Below are positions 8,966 through 41,860 of a DNA stretch of 64,000 nucleotides, in pieces; the first letter of the stretch is position 1, and each line of letters opens with the position of its first letter. Source of the stretch: Streptosporangium saharense (GTDB lineage Bacteria > Actinomycetota > Actinomycetes > Streptosporangiales > Streptosporangiaceae); contig NZ_JACHJP010000006.1 in NCBI RefSeq assembly GCF_014203715.1, positions 186,001 through 250,000 of the forward strand, given 5' to 3'. The notes under the pieces were generated by a model. That model saw nothing but the letters and a program-made list of their open reading frames with translations. It did no database searches and had not been told where the DNA came from. The position numbers and the translations under genes are program-made.

Positions 8966-8998
8966 AAGGGATCACCACTCACTGAGCTGAGGTTTGTG

Positions 8999-23725: not shown

Positions 23726-25162
23726 ATGTCCTTCTCGTCCCCGCTGTTCCTGTGGTTCTTCATGCCCGCGACCCTGCTCGCCTACTGGGTGCTGCCAAGG
23801 CACTGGCGCAACGGGCTCGTCGCCGTGGTCAGCCTGGTCTTCTACACCTGGGGCGCCGGGCCGTACGTCGTGCTGCTGCTTTCGGCGATCGCCGTCAACT
23901 ACGGCGCGGGACTGGCGGTCGGCTCGGCGTGGGCGCGCGAGCGGCCACGCGCGCGCAGGGGGCTGCTGGTCGCGGCGGTCGGCTGGGACCTGGCGATCCT
24001 GGCCGTGTGGAAGTACGGCGGGTTCGCCAGCAGGCAGGCGGACGCGCTGTCGAGCGCGCTGGGGCTCGGGCACACCCCGATCGTGGAGATCGCCCTGCCG
24101 ATCGGGATCTCGTTCTTCACCTTCCACCACCTGTCCTACGTGGTGGACGTCTACCGGGGCAGCAGGCCCGCCCAGCGCAGTCCGGTCGGGTTCGTCACCT
24201 ACATCGCGATGTTCCCCCAGCTCGTCGCCGGGCCGATCGTCCGCTACCACGAGATCTCCGAGCAGCTCACCGAGACGCGGCGCGACCGGTTCGGCGACTT
24301 CGCCGCAGGTTTCCCCCGGTTCGCGCTCGGCCTGGTCAAGAAGGTGGTCGTCGCCGACACGATCGCCCCGGTCGCCGACGCCGCGTTCGCCCAGGCGGGC
24401 GGCCAGATCACGACCCCGACCGCCTGGCTGGCCGCGCTGTCCTACACCGTCCAGATCTACTTCGACTTCTCCGGCTACTCCGACATGGCCATCGGCCTGG
24501 GCACGATGCTCGGCTTCCGGCTCCCGGAGAACTTCAACCGGCCCTACTCCGCCTACTCCGTCACGGACTTCTGGCGGCGCTGGCACATGTCGCTCTCGCG
24601 CTGGTTCCGCGACTACGTCTACATCCCGCTGGGCGGCAACCGCGGCGGCACCCTGGCGACCTACCGCAACCTGCTGGTCATCTTCGTGCTCTGCGGCTTC
24701 TGGCACGGTGCCGACTGGACCTTCCTGGTCTGGGGGCTCTACCACGGCGCTCTCCTGGTCGTCGAACGGCTGCTCGGCTGGGACCGTCCCCCGGGAACCG
24801 CACTGGCCACGCTGGCGCGTCGCGCGGTGACGTTCCTGCTGGTCGTGGTCGGCTGGGTGTTCTTCCGCGCGGAGAGCATGACCGAGGCGGGGGAGGTGCT
24901 GCGGGCGATGTTCGTCTGGACGCCGGGTGAGCTGGACGAGTTCGCGGCCTTCGCGCTCACCCACCAGCGGGCGCTCACCCTCGCGCTCGCGCTGACGGTC
25001 GTGCTGCTGCCCGCCTCGCTCACGCTCGGCCCGCTGATCGAGTCGGGCAGGGGAGGCGCGGTGCGGGTGGTGCGGGCCGCGATGACCTGGGTAGCTGCCC
25101 CCTACGCGGGGGTGCTGGTCGCCGCGGGCACCTTCAGCCCTTTCCTGTACTACCAGTTCTGA
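23726..25162 (+). CDS. MBOAT O-acyltransferase, AlgI-like
   Basis: A 478-residue polytopic membrane acyltransferase. It has the AlgI pattern: an N-terminal FLWFFMP start, a central WRRWHMSLSRWFRDYVYIPLGG block, and the catalytic His in FWHGADWTFLVWGLYHG. AlgI-type proteins move acetyl groups across the membrane for O-acetylation of an exported glycan. The partner gene 13 bases downstream encodes the extracytoplasmic SGNH-like enzyme. The polysaccharide acceptor is unknown; the GT-C-like gene 6 kb upstream is a loose candidate. Confidence 0.92.
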   Translation: MSFSSPLFLWFFMPATLLAYWVLPRHWRNGLVAVVSLVFYTWGAGPYVVLLLSAIAVNYGAGLAVGSAWARERPRARRGLLVAAVGWDLAILAVWKYGGFASRQADALSSALGLGHTPIVEIALPIGISFFTFHHLSYVVDVYRGSRPAQRSPVGFVTYIAMFPQLVAGPIVRYHEISEQLTETRRDRFGDFAAGFPRFALGLVKKVVVADTIAPVADAAFAQAGGQITTPTAWLAALSYTVQIYFDFSGYSDMAIGLGTMLGFRLPENFNRPYSAYSVTDFWRRWHMSLSRWFRDYVYIPLGGNRGGTLATYRNLLVIFVLCGFWHGADWTFLVWGLYHGALLVVERLLGWDRPPGTALATLARRAVTFLLVVVGWVFFRAESMTEAGEVLRAMFVWTPGELDEFAAFALTHQRALTLALALTVVLLPASLTLGPLIESGRGGAVRVVRAAMTWVAAPYAGVLVAAGTFSPFLYYQF

Positions 25163-25175
25163 GGGGAGACGGAAG

Positions 25176-26372
25176 ATGACCGCCGTCAGGACCGAGGCGA
25201 CGTCCTCCGAACGGCGTGGCCGTCCCCTCGCGAGGCGGCGGCTGCCGAGACTGCTGGTCGCGGGGCTGTTCTTCTTCGGGCCCGCGCTGGCCTTCGCCCT
25301 GGGGGAGCGGGCCGTGGAGATCGAGAACAGGAAGCTGCCCGAGTTCCCCTCGCTGTCGAAGGGCTGGGACTTCATCCCCGAGACCGAGTCATGGGCCGTG
25401 GCGCACCTGCCGCTGCGGCAGCACGCCGTACGCGGAAACGTCACCCTGTCCGAGGGGGTGTTCGGCCAGCCGCCGTCGTACAACACCGGTAGGAAACCGA
25501 CCTATCCCCACGTCGTCGAGGGCCGTGACGGCTGGCTCTACTTCGGCGACGACGTGATCGAGGCGTGCGGGCCGCGCTGGAGCGTCGCCGAGACCCTGGA
25601 GCGGACCCGCAGACTGGCCGAGACCGTACGGAGGTCGGGCAGGAGGTTCGTCCTCACCGTCGCCCCCGACAAGACCACGGCCCACCCCGACGAGCTCCCC
25701 GGGCGCTTCCTCGGCCAACGGTGCCTGGAAAGGCGCAAACAGGAGTTCTGGACGGCACTCCAGCGGGCCGACCTGCCCGGATACGTGGACCTGCGGGGCC
25801 CGCTCGAACGGCTGCGCCGGGAGACCGGCGCGCCGACCTACTGGCGGACCGACAGCCACTGGAACGAGCGCTCTTGCGGACTGTACGGCGCGACCCTGGC
25901 ACGGGCGCTCGATCCGAAGCTGGAGCGCGGGACCCGCCTGGTGCGGATCGGGCAGGCACCGAGGGTCGGTGACCTGGGGCCGATGCTGGGCACGCCACGC
26001 GAGGAGACCATCGACCGATGGTCCCTGGTCAGGCAGGGGGTACGGCGCACCGGACAGGACGACACCCAGCTTCCCACCTCGTTCACCACCGCGAACGCCT
26101 CCACCGGGGCGCCGCTCTACAAACCCAGGACTCTCCTCGTGGGTGACTCGTTCACCCGTAACTCGCTGCCGTGGGTCACGCCGTACTTCGCGGACCTGAC
26201 CTATCTGCGCAGCGACGCCTCCGCCAAGGCGGGGCCCGAGTACGTCGCGGAGAAGGTCGCCGGGAGCGAGACCGTGGTGTTCGAGATGGTCGAGCGCTAC
26301 TTCGTCGGCGGGCACGGGGAGATGCTGGAGGAGGAGACCCTCGCCGCGATCGAGAGGGCGCTGCGGAGTTAG
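25176..26372 (+). CDS. AlgX/AlgJ-like SGNH O-acetyltransferase, membrane-anchored
   Basis: A 398-residue protein with a cytoplasmic basic N-terminus, one hydrophobic anchor (about residues 25-45) and an extracytoplasmic catalytic domain. The Asp/His motif lies in WRTDSHWNERS and the Ser motif in LLVGDSFTRN, matching the AlgJ/AlgX SGNH-like active site. It would take acetyl groups from the MBOAT partner and place them on a polysaccharide. The genes are 13 bases apart, so they are one operon. Confidence 0.9.
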   Translation: MTAVRTEATSSERRGRPLARRRLPRLLVAGLFFFGPALAFALGERAVEIENRKLPEFPSLSKGWDFIPETESWAVAHLPLRQHAVRGNVTLSEGVFGQPPSYNTGRKPTYPHVVEGRDGWLYFGDDVIEACGPRWSVAETLERTRRLAETVRRSGRRFVLTVAPDKTTAHPDELPGRFLGQRCLERRKQEFWTALQRADLPGYVDLRGPLERLRRETGAPTYWRTDSHWNERSCGLYGATLARALDPKLERGTRLVRIGQAPRVGDLGPMLGTPREETIDRWSLVRQGVRRTGQDDTQLPTSFTTANASTGAPLYKPRTLLVGDSFTRNSLPWVTPYFADLTYLRSDASAKAGPEYVAEKVAGSETVVFEMVERYFVGGHGEMLEEETLAAIERALRS

Positions 26373-26597: not shown

Positions 26598-27171
26598 ACA
26601 ACCCTCGACGCCACGGCCCCCGGCGCGAAATGTCGAACGATATGGTCATCCCTTTCCTGGGGCCGATCTTGAACGCCCGCGCCCGGGGGACTTGCCCTCC
26701 TTTCCCCGATGCGGCGTTCAGCAGGGTAAACCCGCAAGTCATGTGTCATGCCCTACTCATCGGCGGCGGCCTGTTCCGTTGAGTCCTGTCGGATTCCGTA
26801 TGGTTCGATACGTTGATCGACTTTTCCCGTAAGGCCGCCACCTGGCCGAATATCGTTCCGGTCGCAAATAGCGAGGGTTAAGTCACAAAAATTGGTAGAT
26901 ACATTGCGATCGCGCTGTTGTATACCCGAGGTATGAGTATCCGGATAGTGGGGGTCTGTCCGCTGTGTCTCTTGTCGACCGCGAGCCGACCCACCCCATG
27001 ACCCCTGGTTCGCTCGTCAGGGACGGGCCCACCAGGAGGACGGCCCGTCCGGCCCCCGCCGGCGGCGGCCGTACCCCATGCTCTGGAACGTCCGTGACCT
27101 CCCGCCGTGTCCCCGGGCGCGCGGGAAAAGAGCCGCCGAAACCGCGATTTCCCAGGCCAGATACGGTGACG
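26598..27171. other. Geneless 574-base region with palindromes before the LuxR gene
   Basis: No convincing gene was seen; an in-frame extension of the LuxR gene to 26965 is Pro/Arg-rich and lacks a ribosome site. The part 26870-26950 is AT-richer and holds ATACC-CGA-GGTAT (26922-26934) and the perfect palindrome TATCCGGATA (26938-26947), a likely promoter/operator zone for the cluster regulator. Confidence 0.5.
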
Positions 27172-27900
27172 ATGAAGAATGCCACCCCGAAGAAAACGGT
27201 CCTTCTGGCCGAGAGCCGCACGCTTCTCCGGATCGGACTGAGGGAGATCCTCGACGAGACCGGAGACATGGCGGTGACCGGTGAGACGACCGACTCGGCG
27301 GACACCATCCGCAGCATCCGCGACCTGTGCCCCGAGGTCGTCGTGATGGGACCGCTCAGCGACTGCGCCGACTCCCTTGAGGCGGCCAGGAAGATCGCGG
27401 CCGAGCTGCCCGGCGAGGCCCCCCGCTTCCTCGCGCTCGTCGACGTCTGGGACGCCCGCTCCCTCGACGTGGCCGAACCGGAGGTCGGGGGGCTGCTGTT
27501 CACCAACGCCTCCGCCGAGGAACTGCGCGCCGCGATCAGGATGCTGTCGGCCGGATACTCCCTCCTCGCCCCCGAGGCGTGCCAGCGGGCCGTCAGGACC
27601 GTGGCGGCCGGGTCGCCGCGGACGCCGCCGGTCGCCGACATGACGAACAGGGAACTGGACGTGCTGCGCCTGCTGGCCCGCGGCTACACCAACGCGGAGA
27701 TCTCCAGGGACCTGTCACTCAGCGAGAGCACCGTCAAGTCCCACGTCCAGAACGTGCTGCACAAGAAGCATCTGCGCAATCGTGCGGGAGCGGTGATCTA
27801 CGCCTACGAGACGGGCCTGATGAAGGTGGGGGAGAACCCCGCCCACCTGTCCCGCAGGAGGTATCCACAGGAGGAACGCAGCCGGGCGGCCAACGCGTAA
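27172..27900 (+). CDS. Orphan NarL/LuxR-type regulator with degenerate receiver
   Basis: A 242-residue protein with a receiver-like N-terminal domain (about residues 8-125) and a LuxR HTH at the C-terminus (TNRELDVLRLLARGYTNAEI...STVKSHVQNVLHK). The receiver lacks its chemistry. The acidic pair reads ES (LLAESRTLLRIGL), the phospho-Asp position is Gly (VVVMGPL), and the usual Lys near the end is Thr (GGLLFTNAS). No histidine kinase is nearby. Such aspartate-less regulators (RedZ and JadR1 are known cases) act without phosphorylation and can sense pathway products. It is likely the cluster regulator. ATG 27172 was chosen; a GTG lies six bases earlier. Confidence 0.85.
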   Translation: MKNATPKKTVLLAESRTLLRIGLREILDETGDMAVTGETTDSADTIRSIRDLCPEVVVMGPLSDCADSLEAARKIAAELPGEAPRFLALVDVWDARSLDVAEPEVGGLLFTNASAEELRAAIRMLSAGYSLLAPEACQRAVRTVAAGSPRTPPVADMTNRELDVLRLLARGYTNAEISRDLSLSESTVKSHVQNVLHKKHLRNRAGAVIYAYETGLMKVGENPAHLSRRRYPQEERSRAANA

Positions 27901-27971
27901 CGGGAGGTCAGTCCACTTGTCCGCCCATTGGCACTTCCACAAGATCGCCGTGCTTGCCACGATGGCACTCC

Positions 27972-28898
27972 GTGACGTTCATACGAGACAAGGCCGACAG
28001 GCGGCGCGGCATGATCGGCGCCGCGACCGCGATGTTCTGCGTCGGCACGCTGACGGGGGTCTCTCCTGCGCTTCACGGCTACCCGGTGTACGGCGGGCAG
28101 GCGGTGCGCTACGCCGTCGGCGCGGTCCTGCTGTTCGCCGTCGCGAGGGCCAGGCGGCTGCCGCCGGTCAGGCTGAACCGCCGCGAGATCCTCCTCGTCG
28201 CGCTCCTGGCCCTGGTCGGGCTCGCGGCGTTCAACGTGTTCATCGTCGAGTCGACCCGCTACGCCGACCCGGCGATGGTCGGCACGATCGTGGCCACCGT
28301 CCCCATCGTCTTCGCGGTGGCGACGCCGCTCATGGAGGGCAGGAGACCGACCCCGCACGTCGTGGTCGCGGCGGTCGTGGTCGCCACCGGGGCGGCTGTC
28401 ACCATCGGCCTCGGCGGCGCGACGCTCGTCGGGGTGCTGCTCGCGCTGGGAGCGCTCGGCGGGGAGGTCGGCTTCTCGCTGCTGGCGATCCCGCTGCTGC
28501 CGAAGCTCGGCGCCATCAGGGTCGCCGCCTACTCGGCCGCCGCCGCCGTGCCGCTGCTGCTGGTCGCCGGGGCCGTCGTGGACGGGCCACGGATGCTGCG
28601 GATGCCCACGGCCTCCGAGGCCGCGGCGCTGGCCTACCTCGCCGTGGTCGTGACCGCCTTCGCGTTCTTCTGCTGGTACGACGCGCTGCCCCGCCTCGGC
28701 GCCGAGCGGGCGGGCCTGTTCTCCGGCTTCCTGCCGCTGGGCACCATCGTCGCCGCCGTCGTCCTGGGCACGGGCCACCCCGGCTGGCCGGAGTTCGCCG
28801 GGGCCGCCCTGGTCGTCGTGGGCCTGCTGGTCGGGCTACAGCCGGCGGGCCCCTCCGTCCCGCTGACGGGCCGTCAGACGGCCGAGCAGCGAGAGTAG
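27972..28898 (+). CDS. EamA/DMT-family transporter
   Basis: A 308-residue protein with ten hydrophobic segments in two EamA repeats (each about five helices), as in RhtA/YddG-type exporters of amino acids and metabolites. It starts at GTG 27972, with ATG 28011 as an alternative; the ribosome site is weak. It follows the LuxR gene by 71 bases in the same direction. Its 3' end overlaps the convergent antiporter gene by 63 bases, so both transcripts can form antisense RNA. Within this locus it is a candidate exporter of an amino-acid-like product (inference). Confidence 0.85.
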   Translation: MTFIRDKADRRRGMIGAATAMFCVGTLTGVSPALHGYPVYGGQAVRYAVGAVLLFAVARARRLPPVRLNRREILLVALLALVGLAAFNVFIVESTRYADPAMVGTIVATVPIVFAVATPLMEGRRPTPHVVVAAVVVATGAAVTIGLGGATLVGVLLALGALGGEVGFSLLAIPLLPKLGAIRVAAYSAAAAVPLLLVAGAVVDGPRMLRMPTASEAAALAYLAVVVTAFAFFCWYDALPRLGAERAGLFSGFLPLGTIVAAVVLGTGHPGWPEFAGAALVVVGLLVGLQPAGPSVPLTGRQTAEQRE

Positions 28899-30263
28899 CG
28901 GGGCCGTCGCCGCGGTCGTCACCAGCGCCATGGCGACCAGCACCACGAACAACCGCTCGCTGAGCAGCCCCAGGGCGAGACCGAGGTTGAGCACGACCAG
29001 CTCCGTCAGCCCCCTGGCGTTGAGCAGCACGCCAAGAGAGGCGGAGTCCGGCCAGCTCAACCCGGTCGAACGGGCCATCAGCATCGGGCCCGCCAGCTTG
29101 CCCAGCATCGCGACCGCCACGACGAGCGCGGTGACGCCCACCAGCGAGGCGTCGAACCCGCTGCGCCAGACGTCGGTGCGCAGCCCCGTGCCAACGAAGA
29201 AGAACGGCAGCAGCAGAAGGCCGGAGACGGAGTTGATCCGCTCGGTCAGCCGGGTGAGGGACCCCGCCGGGCAGCACAGGCCGTACAGGAACGCGCCGAA
29301 GATCGCGTGGATCCCGATCGCCGACGTCACCGCGGAGGAGGCGAGCAGACCCGCCAGCAGCACCAGCAGGCGGATCTCCGCACGGCCTTCGAGCGCGGTG
29401 AGGACCCTGGCCAGCCAGGGCCGGACCAGCCAGGTCATCGCGACGCCGTACACGATCACCAGCGTCACGGTGAGCACCGCCCTGGCCGGGGTGTCCCGGC
29501 CGGCCACCGCGGTCATCGCGGCGATCAGGCACCAGGCGACCACGTCGGCGATGGCCGCGCACAGCATGCTCAGCCGCCCCAGCGGGGTGCGGAACATGTT
29601 CCGCTCGACCAGGATGCGGGCGAGCACCGGGAAGGCCGTGATCGACAGGGCGGAGCCGAGGAACATCGCGAAGACCACCGGGCTGGCCTGCGGACCCGCC
29701 CAGTCGCGGTAGAGCAGGCTCGCCAGGAGCGCGCCGCCGAGGAAGGGACCCGCGATGCCCGCGTGGGCGATCGTCACGGCGGCCCCGCCCTGCCCGCGGA
29801 AGGAGGTCTGCTTCGTCTCCTGGCCGACCACGAACATCAGGGCGATCAGCCCCAGGTCGGCCAGTCCCTGCAGGACGGGACGCACCTCCGTGGGGAAGAG
29901 CCAGGCGCTCGCGCCGGGCAGGAGCGCGCCGAGCACCGAGGGGCCGAGGCAGAGCCCGGCGAAGATCTCCCCGACGACGGGCGGCTGCCCCACGCTCCTG
30001 GCCAGCCGCCCGAAGAGCCTGGCGGCCAGGATGACCACGGCTATCGCGGCGAACAACTGGACGCTGTGGTCGAGGGGACCCGACCCCGGGGGCGTCCGCG
30101 CGGAATCGGTGGAGGTCCCCAGCATCACCAGCAGACCGAGGGCCGCCAGCGCGGGCAGGACCGCGGTCAGGACATAGGTGAGGGTGCCCTTCCCGCGACG
30201 CGGGGTCTGGGACCCGGACGGGCGGGGATCGAGGTCGACCGTGCCCGTGGGAGTCGGCGTCAT
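28836..30263 (-). CDS. CPA2-type cation/proton antiporter
   Basis: A 475-residue membrane protein of the Na+(K+)/H+ exchanger family. After an N-terminal cytoplasmic tail of about 28 residues come about 13 hydrophobic segments, with QPPVVGEIFAGLCLGPS and a charged membrane pair around FVVGQETKQ. Related proteins occur in many secondary-metabolite clusters as putative exporters or self-protection. The ATG overlaps the stop of the adenylation gene by four bases, so it is co-translated with the pyrrole-forming enzymes, which is good evidence that it belongs to the pathway. Confidence 0.9.
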   Translation of the reverse strand: MTPTPTGTVDLDPRPSGSQTPRRGKGTLTYVLTAVLPALAALGLLVMLGTSTDSARTPPGSGPLDHSVQLFAAIAVVILAARLFGRLARSVGQPPVVGEIFAGLCLGPSVLGALLPGASAWLFPTEVRPVLQGLADLGLIALMFVVGQETKQTSFRGQGGAAVTIAHAGIAGPFLGGALLASLLYRDWAGPQASPVVFAMFLGSALSITAFPVLARILVERNMFRTPLGRLSMLCAAIADVVAWCLIAAMTAVAGRDTPARAVLTVTLVIVYGVAMTWLVRPWLARVLTALEGRAEIRLLVLLAGLLASSAVTSAIGIHAIFGAFLYGLCCPAGSLTRLTERINSVSGLLLLPFFFVGTGLRTDVWRSGFDASLVGVTALVVAVAMLGKLAGPMLMARSTGLSWPDSASLGVLLNARGLTELVVLNLGLALGLLSERLFVVLVAMALVTTAATAPLLSLLGRLTARQRDGGARRL

Positions 30264-31717
30264 CGTGCCTCCGCGGCGAGCAGGCGACGGTGGACCTTGC
30301 CGTTCGGCGTCCTGGGCAGCTCCTCGACGTGCCGGACGGCATCGACGATCATGTGCCGGGGCAGTACGGCGGCGCAGTGGCGCTTGATCTCCAGCAGGTT
30401 CGGGCGCTCGGTCCCCGAGGGCACCAGATAGGCGACGAGCCTGGCGTCGATCCCGCTGCCGGTCACCACGACGGCCGCGTCGCCGACGGCGGGATGGGCC
30501 TGCAGCGCCGCCTCGATCTCCCCGATCTCGACCCGGTACCCCCGGATCTTGACCTGTCCGTCACTCCTGCCGAGGAAGTCGTACTCGCCGTCCTCCCGCA
30601 GCACCACCCGGTCTCCCGTCGCGTACGGCCCGGCCTGCGGTGGGGCGCCCCAGTAGCCCAGCATCACCGTCGGCCCCTCGACGACCAGTTCCCCCTCCTC
30701 GCCGGGACCGGCAACGCCCCCGTCCTGCCTGACGGCCCACACCCGGTCGCCGGAGCAGGCCCGCCCGATCGGCACCGGCAGCGTCTGGTCCTTGGGAACC
30801 TCACCGACCTCGTGGAAGGTGCACACGTTGGTCTCCGTCGGGCCGTACAGATTGAGCATGCGCACCCCGGCCAGGTGCTCGCGCAGCCCGCGCAGATGCG
30901 TCACGGGGTACGGCTCGCCCGCGAACAGCAGCGCGCGCAGCGCGGTCGGGCGCGTGTCGAGCAGCCCGCCGTCACGGGCCATCAGGATCAGCGCCGAGGG
31001 TACCGAGTACCACACGGTGATCCGGCGGCCGAGCAGGAACTCGACCAGCAGGCGCGGCGCGTAGGCCGTCTCCTGCGGGATCAGGTGCACCGAGGCCCCC
31101 GCGTGGAAGGCGACGTACAGGTCGAGCACCGACAGGTCGAAGTGGAAGGGGGCGTGGTTGGCGAACCGGTCGCCGGGGACGGCCTCCAGCTCGGCGGCGG
31201 CCCAGCCGACGAAGGCCAGCGCGTTGCGGTGCGACAGGCAGACCCCCTTCGGCACGCCGGTCGAGCCCGAGGTGTAGAGGATGTAGGCCAGGTCGTCGGC
31301 CGTCCCCTCCGGCTCGGGCAGCGGCGGTGGCGTCCCCTCGGGCCCCGGACCGGGCGCGGGCACCTCGACGCCGTTGAGTTCGAGCGTCCGCAGCCGCTCG
31401 GGCGTGGTGACCACGGCACGCGGCGCGCAGTCACGCACGAGGTGCACGGCCCGCTCGACCGGGCTGAGCGGGTCGACGGGCACGTAGGCGGCCCCAAGGC
31501 GCAGCACCGCCTGGGTCGCGACCACGGCCCGCGCCGACTTGTCGAGCCAGAGCGCCACCCGGTCGCCCCGCCGTACACCGGTCGCGGCCAGCGCGTGGGC
31601 CAGGCGGTCCGCCTCGGCGTCCAGCTCGCCGTAGGTCAGGGAGGCGTCGGGCCCGGCGACGGCGAGCGCGGTGGGGTCGCGGCGGGCGCTCTCACGGACG
31701 AGTTCGTGCAGTCTCAC
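30260..31717 (-). CDS. Proline-type adenylation enzyme (PltF-like prolyl-AMP ligase)
   Basis: A free-standing 485-residue adenylation domain. Core motifs: A3 TSGSTGVPKG at 149-158, A4 FHFDLS at 191-196, A5 LYGPTETNVCTFHEV from 290, A8 GQVKIRGYRVEIGEIE, and A10 LPRTPNGKVHRR near the end with the catalytic Lys. The A5 block followed by NVCT is the wording seen in PltF/CloN4/RedM-type enzymes, which load L-proline onto a discrete PCP. Flanking dehydrogenase, PCP and halogenase genes support proline as substrate. It overlaps the genes on both sides by four bases (ATGA-type junctions). Confidence 0.88.
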   Translation of the reverse strand: MRLHELVRESARRDPTALAVAGPDASLTYGELDAEADRLAHALAATGVRRGDRVALWLDKSARAVVATQAVLRLGAAYVPVDPLSPVERAVHLVRDCAPRAVVTTPERLRTLELNGVEVPAPGPGPEGTPPPLPEPEGTADDLAYILYTSGSTGVPKGVCLSHRNALAFVGWAAAELEAVPGDRFANHAPFHFDLSVLDLYVAFHAGASVHLIPQETAYAPRLLVEFLLGRRITVWYSVPSALILMARDGGLLDTRPTALRALLFAGEPYPVTHLRGLREHLAGVRMLNLYGPTETNVCTFHEVGEVPKDQTLPVPIGRACSGDRVWAVRQDGGVAGPGEEGELVVEGPTVMLGYWGAPPQAGPYATGDRVVLREDGEYDFLGRSDGQVKIRGYRVEIGEIEAALQAHPAVGDAAVVVTGSGIDARLVAYLVPSGTERPNLLEIKRHCAAVLPRHMIVDAVRHVEELPRTPNGKVHRRLLAAEAR

Positions 31718-32841
31718 AGCCCCAGCTCCTTGACGATCTGTTCGAGCTGGATCTCCGAGGTGCCGGAGAAGACGGTCGAGGGCAGCGCGTCCCGCAGCGC
31801 GCGCTCCACCCCCGCCGCACCGCGGATGCCCGCCCCGCCGAAGATCTGCACGGCGTCGAGACCGGCCCGCACCGCGCCCTCGCTGACCGCCAGCTTGGCC
31901 ATCGCGACGTCGAGCACGGCCCGCTCACCCCGGTCGAGCCGCCAGCAGGCCCGCCACAGCAGCAGCCGCGCCGCCTCAAGGCGCAGCCGCAGCCGCGCGA
32001 CGCGGTGGGAGACCGCCTGGTTGTCCGAGATGCGGCGGCCGAACTGCCTGCGTTCCCCGGCGTGCTCGACCACCGCGTCCAGCAGCCGTTCCGTCAGGCC
32101 CACGTATCCGGCGAACAGGCAGGTGCGCTCCCAGCGCATCGACGACTGGAAGATCGCCGCCCCCTGCCCCCGCACGCCGAGCATGGCGCTCGCCGGCACC
32201 CGGCACCCGTCGAAGGTGACCTCCGCCGCAGGGACGCTCTCCAGCCCCACCTTGCGGAACGGCTCGCCGACGGTCAGTCCCGGCGTACGGCGCGACACGG
32301 CGAAGGCGCTCACCCCCATGTGCCCGAAGGCCGGGTCGGTCGAGGCGTAGACCGTGAAGACGTCCGCGATCGGCGCGTTGCTCACGAAGGACTTGACCCC
32401 GGTGATGACGTAGTCGTCGCCGTCGGCGACCGCGCGCGTCGTCATCGCGGTGACGTCGGAGCCCGCCCCCTCCTCGGTGATCGCGTTGGCGCCGACGAGG
32501 TCGCCGGAGCACAGCCCGGGGAGCGTCGCCGCCCGCAGCTCCTCGCGGCCGTGCTCGGCGACGGGCATCGCGCAGGCGAAAAGGTGCGCCATGGTGGCGA
32601 AGACCAGCCCCATGTCCTGGCAGCCCCTGCCGAAGGCCTCGACGGTCAGCGCCGTGTCCAGGAAGCCGAGTCCGCCGCCGCCGTACTCCACGGGCACGGA
32701 CAGGCCCGTCAGCCCGAGCGCCGCGCACCGCCCCCAGTCCTCACGGGTGAGGAACCCGTTCTCGGTCACCGGCCATGTACGTGTCTTTTCCCGGACCAGC
32801 TCGTATCGCTCCCGCTGGTCGGGATCCCAGGCGAAATCCAC
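31714..32841 (-). CDS. L-prolyl-S-PCP dehydrogenase (PltE-like acyl-CoA dehydrogenase fold)
   Basis: A 375-residue flavoprotein of the acyl-CoA dehydrogenase family. The FAD-binding ITEEGAGSDVTAM block lies near residue 120, and the catalytic-base region SSMRWERT is near residue 235. The FAD-contact segment QIFGGAGIRG and the C-terminal VFSGTSEIQ complete the family pattern. Beside a proline ligase and PltL-like PCP it should oxidise prolyl-S-PCP by four electrons to pyrrolyl-2-carboxyl-S-PCP, as PltE, RedW and CloN3 do. It is the first gene of the leftward operon and starts at an ATG in the divergent control region. Confidence 0.88.
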   Translation of the reverse strand: MDFAWDPDQRERYELVREKTRTWPVTENGFLTREDWGRCAALGLTGLSVPVEYGGGGLGFLDTALTVEAFGRGCQDMGLVFATMAHLFACAMPVAEHGREELRAATLPGLCSGDLVGANAITEEGAGSDVTAMTTRAVADGDDYVITGVKSFVSNAPIADVFTVYASTDPAFGHMGVSAFAVSRRTPGLTVGEPFRKVGLESVPAAEVTFDGCRVPASAMLGVRGQGAAIFQSSMRWERTCLFAGYVGLTERLLDAVVEHAGERRQFGRRISDNQAVSHRVARLRLRLEAARLLLWRACWRLDRGERAVLDVAMAKLAVSEGAVRAGLDAVQIFGGAGIRGAAGVERALRDALPSTVFSGTSEIQLEQIVKELGL

Positions 32842-33132
32842 TCTCGGAAGCTTAGGATCGGCCGCTTTCGGCTGTCCTCATCATTCCAGCGGAAGCCGTA
32901 CTCAACCCTTCTGTCCCGGAAACCGGGAAACGTGGGGAGGCTCGTCCTTTCCACCCCCTACGAAAGGAGGAGAAACCCTGTCCCCCGGAGGGCTCGCGGA
33001 GGGTGAAGTTCAATATTTGTCAGGAGGACAGTCAGAGCGCCGCTTCGTAGTCTCGTGCCGGTGGTCGTGCCCAGATCCACGGCCACGGCGGCGTGACCGC
33101 CCGATGGGTCACCCACGAGACGGGAGCTGCTA
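32842..33132. promoter_or_regulatory. Divergent promoter region of the pyrrole cluster
   Basis: This 291-base gap separates the leftward dehydrogenase operon from the rightward PCP operon. It contains a symmetric element TCCCGG-AAA-CCGGGA at 32914-32928 and an AT-rich CAATATTTG at about 33011-33019 that could serve the rightward promoter. A single regulator could control both arms from here. Confidence 0.6.
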
Positions 33133-33387
33133 ATGAACGGTTCGGAGGTCTCCGACGTACTCCGCAAATACCTGCAGGAAAGAATCCTTGACACCTCGGA
33201 CGTGGAGATCGAGCCGGAGACCCCGTTGCTCGAATGGGGAATTCTCAATTCGCTCACGACCACCCGGCTCGTCGGATTCATCAGGGAACAGTACGGGATC
33301 GAGATCCCCATGGAGGAGATGGTCGGCGGGAACTTCAAGGACCTGCGGAGCATCAGCGCCCTCGTCGTACGGCTCGGCGGCGAGTGA
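33133..33387 (+). CDS. Discrete peptidyl carrier protein (PltL-like)
   Basis: An 84-residue acidic carrier protein. The phosphopantetheine site is Ser40 in TPLLEWGILNSL, a wording essentially shared with PltL of pyoluteorin biosynthesis and unlike general fatty-acid ACPs (DSL). It would carry proline, then pyrrole-2-carboxylate, then the halogenated pyrrole as thioesters. It is the first gene of the rightward operon; the halogenase begins 56 bases later. A dedicated phosphopantetheinyl transferase is not in the window. Confidence 0.92.
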   Translation: MNGSEVSDVLRKYLQERILDTSDVEIEPETPLLEWGILNSLTTTRLVGFIREQYGIEIPMEEMVGGNFKDLRSISALVVRLGGE

Positions 33388-33443
33388 GCGAGTGAACGTG
33401 TACCGGTGTGCCCGTGAACGTGTCCACGAGGGGAAGGCCAATC

Positions 33444-34787
33444 ATGTCTGACGTTGACTTCGACATCGCGATCATCGGGGGCGGTCCCGCGGGATCCACG
33501 ATGGCCTCCTACCTGTCGCAGGCCGGGCTGTCCTGCGGTGTGTTCGAGAGCGCGATCTTCCCGCGTGAGCACGTGGGGGAGTCCCTGATCCCCGCGACCA
33601 CCCCCGTGCTGTCCGACATCGGCGCGCTGCCGAAGATCGAGGCCGCGGGCTTCCCCAGGAAGTACGGCGCCGCCTGGACCTCGGCGATCGACTCGAAGAT
33701 CCCCACCCTGGGCTTCGAGGTCTCCCACGGCTTCGGCACGGCCGAGATCGACTTCAGCGAGCGTGACCAGGCGGGGGTGAACCAGGACTACACCTACCAC
33801 GTGGACCGCGGGCTGTACGACCTGATCCTGCTGCAGCACGCCGAGTCGCTCGGCGCCAAGGTCTACGAGGGCATCCGCGTGCGCCGGGTCGACTTCTCCG
33901 AGCCCGAGCCCAAGCTGGTCTTCAGCATGGGCCGCAGGGAGACCGACATCCGGGCCAGGATGGTGATCGACGCCAGCGGGCGCAACACCTTCCTCGGCAG
34001 GCAGCTCAAGCTCAAGGTCTCCGACCCGGTGTTCAACCAGTACGCGGTGCACACCTGGTTCGACGGGCTCGACCGTGGCGCGCTGTCGGTCAGCAAGGAG
34101 CAGAGCGACTACATCTTCGTCCACTTCCTGCCCATCACCGACACCTGGGTGTGGCAGATCCCCATCACCGACACGGTCACCAGCATCGGGGTCGTCACCC
34201 AGAAGAAGCACTTCAGCGAGTCCGGGTCCGACTGGGAGACCTTCTTCTGGAGGTGCGTGGAGAGCCGCCCCGAGCTGGCCGAGGCGCTGCGCGCGAGCAA
34301 GCAGGTCAGGCCGTTCAAGCCCGAGGGCGACTACAGCTACGCCATGCGGGAGATCTGCGGCGACGGCTGGCTGATGATCGGCGACGCCGCCCGCTTCGTC
34401 GACCCGATCTTCTCCAGCGGCGTCAGCGTGGCCATGAACAGCGCCAGGATCGCCTCCTACGACATCCTCGCGGCGGCCGAACGGGGCGACTTCACCAAGC
34501 CCTCCTTCGCGAACTACGAGGGCAAGCTGCGCAACGCCGTGAGCAACTGGTACGAGTTCATCTCGATCTACTACCGCCTCAACATCCTGTTCACGGCCTT
34601 CGTGGCCGACCCGAGATACCGCCTCGACGTGCTGAAGATGCTCCAGGGCGACGTCTACGACGGCGGTGAGCCGGTCGCGTTGACCAAAATGCGAGAGATC
34701 ACCCGCCAGGTCGAGGAGAATCCTGATCATCTCTGGCACAAGCACCTCGGCACGCTGCGCGCCCCCAGTGCCGCGCCGCAGTTCTAG
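33444..34787 (+). CDS. Flavin-dependent halogenase (PltA-like, acts on pyrrolyl-S-PCP)
   Basis: A 447-residue FADH2-dependent halogenase. The dinucleotide motif GGGPAG is at residues 12-17, the halogenase signature WxWxIP is present as WVWQIP at 235-240, and the second signature FxxPxxSxG appears as FVDPIFSSG at 318-326. PltA has nearly the same length. The adjacent PltL-like PCP indicates chlorination or bromination of a carrier-bound pyrrole. The number and positions of halogens cannot be read. A partner flavin reductase is not in the window. ATG 33444 follows GAGGGGAAGG; an ATG 36 bases upstream lacks one. Relation to geranylgeranyl reductases was considered, but both signatures argue for halogenase. 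Confidence 0.92.
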
Positions 34788-34819
34788 CCGCAGTTCCGAA
34801 CGGAAGGACCGGTAGATCC

Positions 34820-36181
34820 GTGAAGAAGTTCATCCTGGCGGAGAACGACCTGCCCCAGCAGTGGTACAACATCCTGCCCGACCTGCCCACCCCGCTGCCG
34901 CCGTACCTCAACCCCGTCACCCACGAGCCGCTGCGCCCCGAGGACCTCGCGCCGCTGCTGCCGCAGGCGGTGATCGAGCAGGAGTTCTCCCCGGAGCGCT
35001 GGATCGACATCCCCGAGCAGGTTCGCGACATCTACCGGATGTGGCGGCCGAGCCCCCTGGTGCGGGCCGACCGCCTGGAGAAGGCGCTGGACACCCCGGC
35101 GAAGATCTACTTCAAGTACGAGGGCGTCTCGCCCGCGGGCTCGCACAAGCCCAACACCGCGATCCCGCAGGTCTACTACAACGCCAACGAGGGCGTACGG
35201 CGTCTCACGACGGAGACCGGCGCCGGGCAGTGGGGCTCGGCGCTGTCCTTCGCGGGCAGCCTGTTCGGCGTCGCCGTCACGGTCTACATGGTGCGTGCCT
35301 CCTACCACCAGAAGCCCTACCGCCGCTCGCTCATGCACACCTGGGGCGCCGAGGTCTTCCCGTCCCCGACCGAGCGCACCCAGGCGGGCCGCGACATCCT
35401 CGCCAAGGACCCCGAGTCGTCCGGCAGCCTGGGCATCGCCATCAGCGAGGCCGTCGAGGACGCCCTGGCCCACGACGACACCAAGTTCGCCCTCGGCTCG
35501 GCCATGAACCACGTGGTGCTGCACCAGACCGTCATCGGTCTTGAGGCCAAGCGCCAGCTGGAGATGGCGGGCGACTACCCCGACGTCGTGGTCGGGTGCG
35601 TCGGCGGGGGCTCCAACTTCTCCGGGCTGGTCTTCCCCTTCATGGCCGACCGGCTCTCCGGGGAGCGGCCGCAGACCAGGTTCGTCGCTGCCGAGCCCAC
35701 CGCCTGCCCGACGCTCACCCGGGGCACCTACACCTACGACTACCCCGACTCCGCGGGGCTCGGGCCGCTGCTGCCCATGCGCACGGTCGGCCACGGCTTC
35801 ATGCCCGCGCCCATCCACGCGGGCGGGCTGCGCTTCCACGGTGACGCCCCTACCCTGTGCGCGCTGCACGAGCAGGGCTACATCGAGGCCCGCGCCTACG
35901 AGCAGGGCGAGGTGTTCGCCGAGGCCGTCCGGTTCGCCAGGAGCGAGGGCTTCGTCATGGCGCCGGAGTCGTCGCATGCGCTGCGCGGCGCCGTGCAGGA
36001 GGCACTCGCGGCCAAGGAGGAGGGCCGCGAGCGCACCATCCTGTTCGGTCTGTCCGGGCACGGCCACTTCGACCTGGGCGCCTTCGACGCCTACCTGGCC
36101 GGTGAGCTGGAGGACTACACGATCCCCCAGGCCCAGCTCGACGAGGCGCTGAGCCAGCTGCCGAAGATCGCGAAGATCTGA
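34820..36181 (+). CDS. trpB2: Tryptophan synthase beta-like PLP enzyme (TrpB2)
   Basis: A 453-residue stand-alone TrpB2. The PLP Lys is K110 in GSHKPNTA, the catalytic Glu is E132 in ETGAGQWG, and the phosphate-binding loop is GGGSN at 262-266, so it should be active. TrpB joins a nucleophilic heteroarene to the aminoacrylate made from serine. No trpA, trpC or other tryptophan gene is nearby. It sits 32 bases after the halogenase and one base before the amidohydrolase. In this setting a halopyrrole is a plausible nucleophile, giving a pyrrolyl-alanine (inference). A housekeeping indole-salvage role is the alternative. The GTG start is supported by GGAAGGA upstream. Confidence 0.9.
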
Positions 36182-36182
36182 G

Positions 36183-37169
36183 ATGGGCGGCGGCTGGATC
36201 GATGTGCACCACCACAGCTACCACCCGCCGCTGATCGCCGAGCTGCGCCGGAGAGGGGTGACGCACATGGCACCGGGCGTCCCCCTCCCCGAGTGGACGG
36301 TCGAGGACTCCCTGCGGGTGATGGACGCCAACGGCGTCCGGGCGGCGATCCTGTCGATACTCCTGCCGGACGCCGCGCTCGGCCAGGGCGCTTCCTCTCT
36401 GGTACGGCAGGCGAACGAGTGGTCGGCCGAGCTGGTGCGCGACTTCCCCGGCAGGTTCGGCGCCCTGGCCGTCCTGCCCCTGCCCGACGTCGAGGCGGCC
36501 CTGGCTGAGATCGAGTACGCGCTCGACGTGCTCGGCCTCGACGGGGTCGTCATGAGCGCGAGCCTGGCCGACGGCCGCTATCTGGGCGACCCGGCGTTCG
36601 CCCCGGTCTTCGACGAGCTCGACCGGCGCGGGGCCGTGGTCTTCGTCCACCCGAACCCGGCGTACCGGTGCGACTGCGTCGGCGGGCCGGGATTCGCCGC
36701 CAAGGTCCCGCCCCCGCTCGTCGACTTCGTCATGGACACCACGCGGGCGGTCGCCGACCTGCTCTTCGGCGGCACCCTCACCCGCTGCCGCGACATCCGG
36801 TTCGTCCTGGCCCACGCGGGCGGCACGGTGCCGTACCTGGCCTGGCGCCTGGAGCTTGCGGCGACCTGGGTGCTGCCCGGGGCGGGCGAGGTGGACGTGG
36901 CGGGTGAGCTGCGGCGGCTGTACTACGAGACGGCCCAGGCCGCCTCACCCGCGACGCTGGCCTGCCTGGCGGAGGTGACGGGCAGGGAGAACGTCCTGTT
37001 CGGCACGGACTTCCCGTTCATGCGGGACGCGGTCGTCGCCGAGACCCTGCGCCACCTGGCCGAGGCGGGACAGATCCCGTTCGAGGACAACACCCTGGCC
37101 CTGTTCCCCCGGCTGGCGGACAGGCTCGCCTCGGCGCGGGAAGGGGCCGCCGATGCCGCGCGCCTTTGA
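36183..37169 (+). CDS. Amidohydrolase-2 family metal enzyme (decarboxylase-like)
   Basis: A 328-residue TIM-barrel protein of the ACMSD/resorcylate decarboxylase family. Metal and catalytic positions are H9 and H11 (DVHHH), H156 (FVHPNP), H211 (LAHAGG) and D276 (GTDFPF). The family removes carboxyl groups from aromatic acids or hydrolyses related substrates. In this operon a pyrrole-2-carboxylate decarboxylase is a reasonable guess, producing a free halopyrrole for TrpB2. It starts one base after the trpB2 stop, so it is translationally coupled, and its end overlaps the MaoC-like gene by 17 bases. Confidence 0.85.
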   Translation: MGGGWIDVHHHSYHPPLIAELRRRGVTHMAPGVPLPEWTVEDSLRVMDANGVRAAILSILLPDAALGQGASSLVRQANEWSAELVRDFPGRFGALAVLPLPDVEAALAEIEYALDVLGLDGVVMSASLADGRYLGDPAFAPVFDELDRRGAVVFVHPNPAYRCDCVGGPGFAAKVPPPLVDFVMDTTRAVADLLFGGTLTRCRDIRFVLAHAGGTVPYLAWRLELAATWVLPGAGEVDVAGELRRLYYETAQAASPATLACLAEVTGRENVLFGTDFPFMRDAVVAETLRHLAEAGQIPFEDNTLALFPRLADRLASAREGAADAARL

Positions 37170-37584
37170 GGACTTCCAGGTCGGGGACGTCTTCGAACTG
37201 GGCAGCCAGAAGATCACCCATGAGGAGATCGTCGGGTTCGCCCGGATGTACGACCCGCAGCCCCGCCATCTCGACGACGAGGACCTCATCGCCAGCGGCT
37301 GGCACGTGACGGCGCTGTTCATGAGGCTCTACGCGGAGGGGGTCCTGCTGCACGCCGAGGCGGAGGTCTCTCCCGGTGTGGAGGAGCTTCGCTGGCTGCG
37401 GCCGGTCAGACCGGGGGACGTCCTGACCGGCAGGGCGACGGTCGTCGGGCTCGCGGCCTCCCTGTCCAGGCCTGACTGCGGCATCCTCCAGCAGCGCGGG
37501 GAGTTCCTCGACGCCCAGGACAGACCCGTCATGCGCATCACGTTCTACGGCCTGATGCGCAGGCGGGGGGCCGCAGGGCCGTAG
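37153..37584 (+). CDS. MaoC-like hot-dog fold protein, shortened
   Basis: A 143-residue MaoC-like protein. The hydratase dyad Asp...His is retained in YDPQPRH near residues 36-42, and the IASGWH helix follows. About eight residues normally found between these two (ending in an FGG motif) are missing, so the substrate tunnel should differ. Relatives hydrate enoyl thioesters, and other hot-dog proteins cleave thioesters. Because no thioesterase is present, it might release the pyrrolyl acid from the PCP (inference). It overlaps the preceding gene by 17 bases and ends the operon. Confidence 0.85.
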   Translation: MPRAFEDFQVGDVFELGSQKITHEEIVGFARMYDPQPRHLDDEDLIASGWHVTALFMRLYAEGVLLHAEAEVSPGVEELRWLRPVRPGDVLTGRATVVGLAASLSRPDCGILQQRGEFLDAQDRPVMRITFYGLMRRRGAAGP

Positions 37585-37590
37585 CGGTCC

Positions 37591-39066
37591 TCACACGACG
37601 ACCTGTACGGCGGGCGCCGGCCCGTGCCTGGCGATCTCCGACCAGGCACGGGCGAGCCGGTGGACGAGCTCGTCGAGGACCTCGGGGGAGAAGGTGAACG
37701 GCAGCCTGATGTGGTTGGCGTGCCCGCCGTCCGGGTCCATCACCGCGCCGGGCACTACGTCCACGCCGTGCCGTACCGCGACCTGGGCGAAGGCCATGGC
37801 GTCCACGCCGGGCAGCTCCACCCACAGGGCGCCGCCCCCGTCGGGGCGCTGCCAGCGCCAGCTCGGCAGCCGGTTCCGCAGCAGGGCGTCCATGTGGTCG
37901 AGCTGCAGCCCCAGCTCCTTGGACCGATCGGCGAGGATCCGGTCGAGACGGGGCATCAGCCTCGCCGCCAGAGCCTGGTCGATCACCGGGCTGCCGATGT
38001 CGGCCAGGACCTTGCGCCGGGAGAGCCGCTGCACGATCTCCGCGGGCCCGCGGACCCACCCGATCCGCAGGCCACCCCAGACGGCCTTGGCGAGCGAGCC
38101 GAGCGAGAGCATCTCCGTGCCCGGCGGCGCGTAGGCGGCCAGCGGCGCGGGCACGACCCCCGACTCGGGGTGGTAGGTCATGTAGGCGTTGTCCTCAAGG
38201 ACGGGCACCTCGTGCTCGGCGGCGAGTTCGGCGATCCTGCGCCTGCGCGCCGCCGACATGAGCACCCCGGTCGGGTTGTGGTAGGTCGGCATCACGTAGA
38301 GCAGCGAGGGCTTGCGCTCCCGCAGCACGGTGCCGAGCGTGTGGATCTCCGGGCCCTCCTCGTCGAGCGGCACGGTCACCAGACGCGCCCCCGCGGAGCG
38401 GAACACGTCCAGGCAGCCGGGCCAGTTGGGCGTCTCGACGATCACCGTCGCGCCCTGGCTGACGTACAGCTCCGTCGTCAGGACCAGGCCCTGGTGCGCG
38501 CCCGTGGTCACCACGACCTCGTCGTGCGCGGTCGGCAGGCCGTTCCTCGTCAGGTAGTCCGCGATGGCCTCACGCAGCTCGGGCAGCCCCGAGGGGTGGT
38601 AGCCGGGTCCAGACAACAGCTCGTCCAGGTCGTCGCGGACCAGCTCGCGCAGCGTGACGGCCAGTTCCGGCGCCGCCCCGCCCGCCGCGACCGCGACGGA
38701 GATCAGCTCGCCGGGCCCGTCGATCAGCCGCTGGAAGATCGTCATCGCGGTGCCGCCCGGCACCCGCCCGTCGGCGGTCGGCCTGGGCACCTTGACGTCC
38801 GAGGCGATCCTGGTGCCGCTTCCCTGACGGCTCGACAGCAGCCCCGCGCCCCGCAGCTCCTGGTAGGCCGCGACCACGGTCGCCCTGCTCACCTGGAGCG
38901 CCTCGCCGAGCCCGCGCTCGGAGGGCAGCCGGTCGTCGGGGAGCAGCAGCCCGTCCTCGACGGCCCGCGTCAGCGCGTCCGCCAGCTTGCGGTAGAGGGG
39001 CCCCCGGCCCGACGCCCAGTCACCGAGGAGCGCGACGATGTCACGTTCGGTGGAAATACGGTCCAT
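37591..39066 (-). CDS. MocR-type GntR/aminotransferase regulator
   Basis: A 491-residue fusion: a GntR winged helix (residues about 20-90, LPSERGLGEALQVSRATVVAAYQEL) joined to a class I aminotransferase-like domain. The PLP Lys lies in SLGSLAKAVWGGLRIGW, and the Asn and Tyr of the cofactor site are in YHNPTG and NAYMTY. Such proteins sense PLP or amino-acid adducts and regulate neighbouring genes. It converges on the MaoC-like gene with a 6-base gap and is divergent from a small membrane protein. Given a PLP enzyme in the cluster, it may be a second pathway regulator, though it could be unrelated. Confidence 0.88.
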   Translation of the reverse strand: MDRISTERDIVALLGDWASGRGPLYRKLADALTRAVEDGLLLPDDRLPSERGLGEALQVSRATVVAAYQELRGAGLLSSRQGSGTRIASDVKVPRPTADGRVPGGTAMTIFQRLIDGPGELISVAVAAGGAAPELAVTLRELVRDDLDELLSGPGYHPSGLPELREAIADYLTRNGLPTAHDEVVVTTGAHQGLVLTTELYVSQGATVIVETPNWPGCLDVFRSAGARLVTVPLDEEGPEIHTLGTVLRERKPSLLYVMPTYHNPTGVLMSAARRRRIAELAAEHEVPVLEDNAYMTYHPESGVVPAPLAAYAPPGTEMLSLGSLAKAVWGGLRIGWVRGPAEIVQRLSRRKVLADIGSPVIDQALAARLMPRLDRILADRSKELGLQLDHMDALLRNRLPSWRWQRPDGGGALWVELPGVDAMAFAQVAVRHGVDVVPGAVMDPDGGHANHIRLPFTFSPEVLDELVHRLARAWSEIARHGPAPAVQVVV

Positions 39067-39990: not shown

Positions 39991-41085
39991 ATGGCAGCTA
40001 ACGACCGCGAGAAGGCGCTTGAGACCGCCCTCGCCCAGATCGAGCGGCAGTTCGGCAAGGGCTCCGTCATGCGTCTCGGCGACGACGCCCGCGCGCCCAT
40101 CGAGGTGATCCCGACCAGCTCCATCGCGCTCGATGTGGCCCTGGGCATCGGCGGTTTCCCGAGGGGCCGCATCGTCGAGGTCTACGGTCCCGAGTCCTCC
40201 GGCAAGACCACCGTCGCCCTGCACGCCGTGGCCAACGCCCAGCGGGCCGGTGGCATCGCGGCCTTCATCGACGCCGAGCACGCCCTCGACCCCGAGTACG
40301 CCAAGAAGCTCGGTGTCGACACCGACGCGCTGCTGGTCTCCCAGCCCGACACCGGTGAGCAGGCGCTTGAGATCGCCGACATGCTGATCCGCTCCGGCGC
40401 CGTCGACCTGCTGGTCATCGACTCGGTGGCAGCCCTGGTGCCGAAGGCCGAGATCGAGGGCGAGATGGGCGACAGCCACGTCGGCCTCCAGGCCCGCCTG
40501 ATGTCCCAGGCGCTGCGCAAGGTGGCGGGCGCGCTCAACAACACCGGCACCACCGCGATCTTCATCAACCAGCTCCGCGAGAAGATCGGCGTCATGTTCG
40601 GCTCGCCCGAGACCACGACCGGTGGAAAGGCGCTGAAGTTCTACGCCTCGGTCCGTCTCGACATCCGCCGCATCGAGACGCTGAAGGACGGCACCGAGGC
40701 CGTGGGCAACCGCACCCGCGTGAAGGTCGTCAAGAACAAGATGGCCCCGCCCTTCCGCGTGGCCGACTTCGACATCCTCTACGGCGTCGGCATCTCCCGC
40801 GAGGGCGGTCTGATCGACATGGGTGTCGAGCACGGCTTCGTCCGCAAGTCCGGCGCCTGGTACACCTACGAGGGCGACCAGCTCGGCCAGGGCAAGGAGA
40901 ACGCCCGTAACTTCCTGAAGAACCACCCCGACATCGCCAACGAGATCGAGAAGAAGATCAAGGAGAAGCTCGGCATCGGCCCGCGCCTGGACACCCCCGC
41001 GACCCCGCCGCCCGCCGCTCCTGCTCCCGCCGCCTCCTCGGGCCGTGGCTCCAAGGCCTCGACTCCCAAGCCGGGTGACGTCTGA
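39991..41085 (+). CDS. recA: Recombinase RecA
   Basis: A 364-residue RecA, the DNA strand-exchange and SOS co-protease protein. Walker A GPESSGKT, the MAW-like homopairing and L2 regions ([19 protein letters not shown] in outline) and the C-terminal domain are all present. No intein interrupts it, unlike in Mycobacterium tuberculosis. The last ~35 residues are a Pro/Ala-rich tail common in actinobacteria. GGGGGGCTCCC precedes the ATG. recX follows after 13 bases. Confidence 0.98.
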
Positions 41086-41098
41086 TCCGGGCTGACCG

Positions 41099-41860
41099 AT
41101 GACGACGGGACCCGATTCCGGTCCGGCCGGTGAGGCCGGACCGCGGGACTGGGGTGCCTGGCCCGACTCCGAGGAGACCCGGCGGGGGCGGCGCGGCCGG
41201 GGTGCCCGGAGCGGGCGTGCCCGGGGCAGGCGCGCCGGACGCTTCGGAGAAGGGCGCGAAGAAGGCTCGGGGCAGGGGAGCGGCTTCCTGCCCGACGGCC
41301 CGGTCGAGGGGTCAGCGGCGGCCAGGGGGCCCGGTGCCGACCCGCAGGCGGTGGCGCGGGCGATCTGCCTGCGGTTGCTGACCATGGCGCCACGGACCCG
41401 GGCCCAGCTCGCCGAGGCGCTCCAGCGGCGCGAGGTGCCGCAGGAGGCCGCCGAGGCCGTGCTTGAGCGGTTCTCCGAGGTCGGCCTCATCGACGACGAG
41501 GCGTTCGCCGAGGCGTGGGTGACCTCCCGCCACGCGGGCCGGGGGCTGGCCAGGAAGGCCCTCGCCTCCGAGCTGCGCCACCGGGGGGTGGACGAGGACA
41601 TCGTCAAGGACGCGATCGAGCAGCTCGACCCCGAGCAGGAGGCCGAGACGGCACGCGCGCTGGTCATGCGCAAGCTGTCCTCGACCCGTGGCCTCGACCC
41701 GGCGGTCAGGACCAGGAGGCTGGCGGGCATGCTCGCCAGAAAGGGATACGGCCCCGGCCTGGCCTTCCGGGTGATCCGTGAGGCACTGGAGAGCGAGGAG
41801 GCGGACAATTTCCCCTCTTCATCCCCTTCCATGGAAGAACGCGATTATCCGGAAGACTGA
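41099..41860 (+). CDS. recX: RecX regulatory protein with basic N-terminal extension
   Basis: A 253-residue protein. The C-terminal ~170 residues form the three-repeat helical RecX fold (AICLRLLTMAPRTRAQL..., LIDDEAFAEAWV..., and the RRLAGMLARKGYGPGLAFRVI end). RecX caps RecA filaments and limits recombination. The first ~75 residues are a Gly/Arg-rich disordered extension that may bind DNA or RecA's acidic tail. It is co-transcribed with recA. Confidence 0.93.
   Translation: MTTGPDSGPAGEAGPRDWGAWPDSEETRRGRRGRGARSGRARGRRAGRFGEGREEGSGQGSGFLPDGPVEGSAAARGPGADPQAVARAICLRLLTMAPRTRAQLAEALQRREVPQEAAEAVLERFSEVGLIDDEAFAEAWVTSRHAGRGLARKALASELRHRGVDEDIVKDAIEQLDPEQEAETARALVMRKLSSTRGLDPAVRTRRLAGMLARKGYGPGLAFRVIREALESEEADNFPSSSPSMEERDYPED

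Follow-up and report, generated by a model that had tools for sequence, protein, structure and literature searches.

Among the closest described relatives of the gene cluster analyzed here is the pyoluteorin-type starter cassette, PltF, PltE, PltL and PltA. The cluster lies in a 64-kb stretch of the Streptosporangium saharense genome (the window), and it shares with that cassette the ligase specificity residues, a probable prolyl-carrier dehydrogenase, the peptidyl carrier protein (PCP), the halogenase and the divergent layout. However, the window cluster has no ketosynthase (KS), and carries instead genes for TrpB2 (stand-alone tryptophan synthase beta), a PF04909 metal-dependent enzyme and a hot-dog protein, together with an exporter gene and, in relatives, a tRNA-editing gene. 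The Bmp pathway of marine bacteria is a second point of comparison. It frees bromopyrrole from a carrier-thioesterase fusion protein and is not known to continue with a TrpB. In that pathway a proline-derived pyrrole is halogenated on a carrier and freed without a polyketide, as is proposed here, whereas the window cluster would use separate proteins for release and has TrpB2. We put at about 55% the probability that the cluster makes a free halogenated pyrrolyl amino acid and that a PF04073 trans-editing protein clears mischarged tRNA in six of its relatives. The starter cassette is known. No title or abstract found in one open-access paper library, which lacks most subscription papers, describes it in combination with TrpB2, a decarboxylase-like enzyme and a tRNA-editing gene, although such a combination may still have been published.

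The pyrrole starter cassette and its genomic setting

The four starter proteins were compared with characterized ones. The best solved match of the ligase was PltF (6o6e, E 7.8e-149), and an alignment showed the residues of PltF at all ten specificity positions; we assumed the choice of these positions, and the resulting code, DLLYLALVCK, which we take to specify proline, was present at 9 of the 11 loci that carry the cluster. The dehydrogenase matched the PigA (450 bits) and RedW (424 bits) models best, although neither score reaches the equivalog cut-off (500 for PigA, 650 for RedW), and the next model scored 235 bits. The PCP matched PF00550 and has the phosphopantetheine serine. The halogenase gave full-length matches to ChlB4 (7fco), the Mpy16-type 5buk (presumably Mpy16 itself) and PltA (5dbj), at E <= 5.4e-193, and its motifs were kept at all 11 loci. 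A first-pass annotation, made from the window sequence, had reported a PltF-, PltE-, PltL- and PltA-like set divergent around a 291-base control region, and that region and the motifs it named were all found (LLEWGILNS in the PCP; WxWxIP, as WVWQIP, and FxxPxxSxG, as FVDPIFSSG, in the halogenase). The predicted starter steps, namely loading of proline, oxidation and halogenation on the PCP, rest on strong homology.

ChlB4, the substrate of which is a benzenoid acid, outscored PltA as a halogenase match, and we therefore infer the pyrrole substrate from the adjoining ligase and dehydrogenase. Mono- versus dihalogenation was also considered on the basis of halogenase similarity, a matter on which the comparison of structure matches cannot decide. 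At four public loci (L087, L048, L050 and L052) the halogenases were 77-78% identical to that of the window and lay beside KS genes; homologs of the ligase, dehydrogenase and PCP were not found within the stretches examined there, and these halogenases probably serve another substrate class.

The surroundings of the cassette were searched for an assembly line by tblastn (E 1e-5), the probes being one KS and one condensation (C) domain encoded in the genome of the window strain. Neither domain was found in any of 11 contexts, the window and 10 homologous contexts of 14.8-40 kb, which agrees with the first-pass reading. Both probes were positive in controls: the C probe matched the genome's own nonribosomal peptide synthetase (NRPS) stretches (L009 and L011), and the KS probe gave matches at five of five other halogenase loci. 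A Pfam scan of 30 window proteins, which does not cover every window gene, showed no thioesterase, and no thioesterase probe was run. Large flanking open reading frames were considered as megasynthases and rejected, because the five proteins of at least 588 amino acids among seven scanned either were TPR/NB-ARC, ThuA/lectin, DNA polymerase III alpha or Dak kinase proteins or had no match.

Outside the window, carrier and condensation domains are present on the same contig at 135.5-177.7 kb, about 37-79 kb upstream of the antiporter gene of the cluster, and the cassette might supply a building block to this NRPS. S. carneum has a 4-kb piece of the NRPS at 90% identity and in a similar position. 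However, in genome G004 the best NRPS match (72%) lies at 1.5 Mb and the cluster at 8.97 Mb, while genomes G001 and G002 have NRPS matches of 67-79% and yet a close halogenase relative was not found in them; the cluster surroundings in the remaining contexts gave no match to the KS or C probe either. By these sequence comparisons the upstream NRPS does not travel with the cluster, and a supplier role for the cassette is very unlikely.

The distribution of the cluster was examined in 345 genomes of the order. A halogenase match (E <= 1e-100) was found in 24 of them, and TrpB2 lay within about 1.5 kb of it at 8 of the 24 loci; these eight loci, two Saccharothrix loci and one Amycolatopsis locus form the set of 11 genomes used throughout. 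Seven core genes, encoding the ligase, dehydrogenase, PCP, halogenase, TrpB2, PF04909 protein and hot-dog protein, were together in all 11 genomes, and since they are kept together in this many genomes, the grouping is more than chance. The distances between core proteins correlated for all 21 gene pairs (r 0.83-0.97, 55 pairs of loci). The surroundings varied; of the 11 contexts, the window and S. carneum alone have recA beside the cluster. The first-pass annotation had proposed a search for an eight-gene neighbourhood, and seven of its genes recur together; the first gene of its interval encodes a CPA2-type antiporter rather than a pyrrole enzyme and was present in 8 of the 11 contexts.

We also analyzed 52 public loci of halogenase relatives. 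TrpB2, PF04909 and hot-dog genes (the trio) occurred together at seven of them, 45 had none of the three, and no locus had a partial trio. A KS match was found at 35 of the 45 non-trio loci and at none of the seven trio loci. Absence carries little weight for some of the 45, since three lie on contigs shorter than 5.5 kb and a few others are remote (L096 has no halogenase at the threshold). Within flanks of about 1.5 kb, no trio partner was found at 32 other TrpB2 loci or at 28 other PF04909 relatives. The data support a proline-derived halopyrrolyl-S-PCP cassette that is conserved as a unit and has no adjoining assembly line. Because the trio stands in place of the assembly line in this conserved unit, a small product is expected. 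The first-pass annotation had expected one of a new type but did not reach the product class; its observation was confirmed with small corrections, and its interpretation is partly supported.

TrpB2, the PF04909 protein and the hot-dog protein

The family models confirmed that TrpB2, a PF04909 protein (first described as an amidohydrolase) and a hot-dog protein fill the predicted operon. TrpB2 scored 639 bits against TIGR01415 (cut-off 518.85) and 709 bits against NF009057 (cut-off 366). Residue equivalences were taken from an alignment with canonical TrpB, and the numbering (Glu109) is presumably that of Salmonella TrpB. The pyridoxal phosphate lysine, the Glu109-equivalent and the serine were kept in the cluster TrpB2s of all 11 genomes. 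These proteins thus belong to the same family as the TrpB2 structures 6hul, 4qys and 6hte and keep the catalytic residues; however, they differ from them in forming one group of 11 (support 86/73), linked to the halopyrrole cassette, with 22 diagnostic positions that distinguish them, by a fixed rule, from 32 other TrpB2s. Some of the 22 positions are in segments aligning to the substrate side of canonical TrpB, and Phe339 of the cluster copies is Tyr in 31 of the 32 others. A canonical TrpB is encoded elsewhere in all 11 genomes, and the cluster copy is the sole TrpB2 in eight. The role of a TrpB2 beside canonical TrpB is often unclear.

In the PF04909 protein, the HxH motif, His156, His211 and Asp276 were invariant in 11 of 11 clusters. 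Its nearest characterized folds, in the best 50 of 133 matches at E <= 0.001, were isoorotate, dihydroxybenzoate and carboxyvanillate decarboxylases, and its nearest characterized relatives by sequence and fold include aminocarboxymuconate-semialdehyde decarboxylase (model pLDDT, the predicted local distance difference test score, 85.5). The cluster protein has the fold and metal-ligand pattern of the first three decarboxylases, but it is only about 19-28% identical to them and its proposed substrate is a halopyrrole carboxylate. Thus the PF04909 family, the metal ligands and, in the model, a decarboxylase-like fold are present, and the fold is itself no proof of decarboxylation. An invariant Cys-x-Cys (residues 163 and 165) was also seen in all 11 clusters and falls where the confidence of the model is lowest. 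PtmU3 does not provide a thioesterase precedent within PF04909, because PMC10127204 describes it as a diiron monooxygenase.

By Pfam, alignment and Foldseek, the hot-dog protein has a MaoC fold with a hydratase-type dyad, Asp34/His39, which is present in all 11 clusters; the pLDDT of its model was modest (76), and those of the other four models were 57-68. The release step is given to this protein mainly because the cluster offers it no other role, which makes it the weakest of our assignments. The duties might be divided differently, with the PF04909 protein hydrolysing the thioester, the hot-dog protein acting as a hydratase on another intermediate, and TrpB2 acting on a carboxylated or PCP-bound pyrrole. 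Such a scheme would suit the invariance of the MaoC dyad and the hydrolases and hydratase known within PF04909, but decarboxylases are the characterized proteins closest in fold to the PF04909 protein, and the pathway shows no evident alkene or hydroxyacyl intermediate on which a hydratase could act; we regard it as very unlikely.

Indications of an amino acid product and the proposed pathway

An aminoacyl-tRNA editing gene of family PF04073 directly follows the hot-dog gene in 6 of the 11 clusters, those of Actinoallomurus, genomes G183 and G035, two Saccharothrix and Amycolatopsis. The two of the six proteins that were scanned scored 67.7 and 85.8 bits (Pfam cut-off 25.5), Lys44 in an LLKT stretch was invariant in all six, and the gene was found at none of the 45 non-trio loci. 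The family and the invariant Lys are shared with the YbaK/ProX-type trans-editing deacylases. In contrast to Cys-tRNA(Pro) deacylase, for which the model cut-off is 153 bits, the editing protein of locus L049 scored 38.7 bits and sits within a biosynthetic cluster. A hidden PF04073 partner elsewhere in the genome of the window strain was considered and judged unsupported, as only a distant match (29%) on contig C2 was found.

An exporter gene was present in all 11 clusters, of the EamA type in nine and of the LysE type in two (G183 and G035), where it lies at the other cluster end. Both families include amino-acid exporters. The window EamA exporter weakly matched two models, the carboxylate/amino acid/amine transporter and YddG, and reached the cut-off of neither. 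The two LysE-bearing clusters (L100:1001-2380 and L101) are also the ones with altered ligase codes. The copy number of tryptophanyl-tRNA synthetase was examined as a possible mark of self-resistance and proved uninformative: 8 of the 11 cluster genomes have two trpS matches, and so do 6 of the 7 genomes used for comparison.

The PF04073 genes, the EamA and LysE exporters, the resemblance in fold between the PF04909 protein and decarboxylases, and the strict co-segregation of TrpB2 with the cassette together argue for a free amino acid product. Alternatively, in line with the general first-pass reading, the product could be a small non-amino-acid halopyrrole, either halopyrrole-2-carboxylate or the free halopyrrole, with TrpB2 in an unrelated or accessory role. 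The starter genes are as in pyrrole pathways, free bromopyrroles are known natural products, and an antiporter gene is likewise found at 13 of the 45 non-trio loci. However, TrpB2 occurs in all 11 clusters with its catalytic residues kept, and PF04073 proteins and amino-acid-type exporters make little sense with such a product, so that this alternative appears unlikely.

For the amino acid reading, we propose the following pathway. By homology, the ligase would load L-proline on the PCP, the dehydrogenase would convert it to pyrrolyl-2-carboxyl-S-PCP, and the halogenase would halogenate the pyrrole ring. The hot-dog protein, or less likely another hydrolase, may then free the halopyrrole acid from the PCP, and the PF04909 enzyme may decarboxylate the acid to a free halopyrrole. 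On TrpB2, this halopyrrole would attack the aminoacrylate derived from L-serine, as indole does in tryptophan synthesis, to give a halopyrrolyl-alanine, which EamA or LysE would export; in the six relatives, the PF04073 protein would remove product mischarged on tRNA. More tentatively, the halogenase may, like PltA, give a 4,5-dichloropyrrole, so that decarboxylation would leave 2,3-dichloropyrrole, from which TrpB2 would make 3-(dichloropyrrolyl)-L-alanine. This mimic of tryptophan would be an exported antimetabolite, against which the producers would be protected by the trans-editing protein or, in the window lineage, by other means. Judged from structure formulas rather than by computation, 2,3-dichloropyrrole resembles indole because its chlorines occupy the benzene-fusion positions.

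Several points weigh against the amino acid reading. The support of the TrpB2 group (86/73) is moderate, and its 22 positions come from sequence alignment. The window cluster has no PF04073 gene, nor have the four relatives nearest to it. The EamA and LysE families are broad, and no exporter or editing protein reaches an NCBIfam equivalog cut-off. PF04909 also contains hydrolases, a hydratase and the diiron oxygenase PtmU3, and the sequence matches of the cluster protein include, at weaker scores, PtmU3 and 4-oxalomesaconate hydratase. The best folds for the hot-dog protein were MaoC (de)hydratases, with the thioesterase FlK appearing only from rank 32. The ligase code is altered to DLLYVAFVCK in G035 and to DLFYAAFVCK in G183, and these two ligases, judged by their codes, might load another acid.

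If the proposal is correct, a well-known cassette that supplies starter units for polyketide and peptide antibiotics has been turned to the production of a free amino acid that bears halogen, and TrpB2 takes the last step. The route would lead from carrier protein to amino acid: once halogenated, the acid would leave the PCP, lose its carboxyl group and be rebuilt. TrpB2 would thereby gain a specialised job, natural TrpB catalysts for pyrroles would be at hand, and a PF04073 editing protein would be tied to producer self-protection. The pathway consists of seven short genes and is directly testable in a laboratory host.

Cluster layout and neighbouring genes

The coordinates of the cluster and adjoining genes are collected in Table 1. 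Leftward from the control region lie the dehydrogenase, ligase and antiporter genes, with the exporter and LuxR-family regulator genes further left. Rightward lie the PCP, halogenase, TrpB2, PF04909 and hot-dog genes, followed by the MocR-type regulator gene and recA. The rightward genes apparently form one operon, since a single base separates the TrpB2 and PF04909 genes and the PF04909 and hot-dog genes overlap by 17 bases.

Table 1. Features of the cluster in the 64-kb window of Streptosporangium saharense
Feature	Position	Strand	Basis or remark
LuxR-family (GerE) regulator, beside exporter	27166..27900	+	PF00196
EamA/DMT-type exporter (start uncertain)	27960..28898	+	family search
CPA2-type cation/proton antiporter, auxiliary	28836..30263	-	family models
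PltF-like L-prolyl-PCP ligase, code DLLYLALVCK	30260..31717	-	model and PltF 6o6e match
Prolyl-S-PCP dehydrogenase, PigA/RedW/PltE type	31714..32841	-	family models
Divergent control region, 291 bases	32842..33132	none	
PCP, free-standing, core EWGILNSL	33133..33387	+	PF00550
FAD-dependent halogenase	33444..34787	+	ATG 33444 preferred to GTG 33408
TrpB2	34820..36181	+	TIGR01415/NF009057
PF04909 metal-dependent enzyme, predicted decarboxylase	36183..37169	+	Pfam, sequence matches, fold
MaoC-like hot-dog protein, Asp34/His39 dyad, predicted release enzyme	37153..37584	+	Pfam, alignment, fold
MocR-type regulator (GntR and aminotransferase-fold)	37591..39066	-	6 of 11 contexts

Simple scans of the control region for sigma-70 promoters and terminators, which do not cover other promoter types, gave nothing. 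A homolog of the LuxR-family regulator was present in all 11 contexts, with 37-100% identity to the S. carneum copy. The CPA2 antiporter homologs near the halogenase at non-trio loci (L053, L054, L061, L062, L064, L070, L073-L077, L080 and L083) mostly occur together with KS, and this antiporter is perhaps a companion of proton-shuttling halopyrroles.

Directly past the MocR gene are recA and recX (window 39991-41860). A class II aminoacyl-tRNA synthetase gene of the D, K, N type (window 8996-10315), 18 kb off the cluster, had no counterpart in the other contexts compared. An MBOAT acyltransferase gene and an AlgX-like gene form a pair at 23726-26372, which among the contexts is common to S. 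carneum only.

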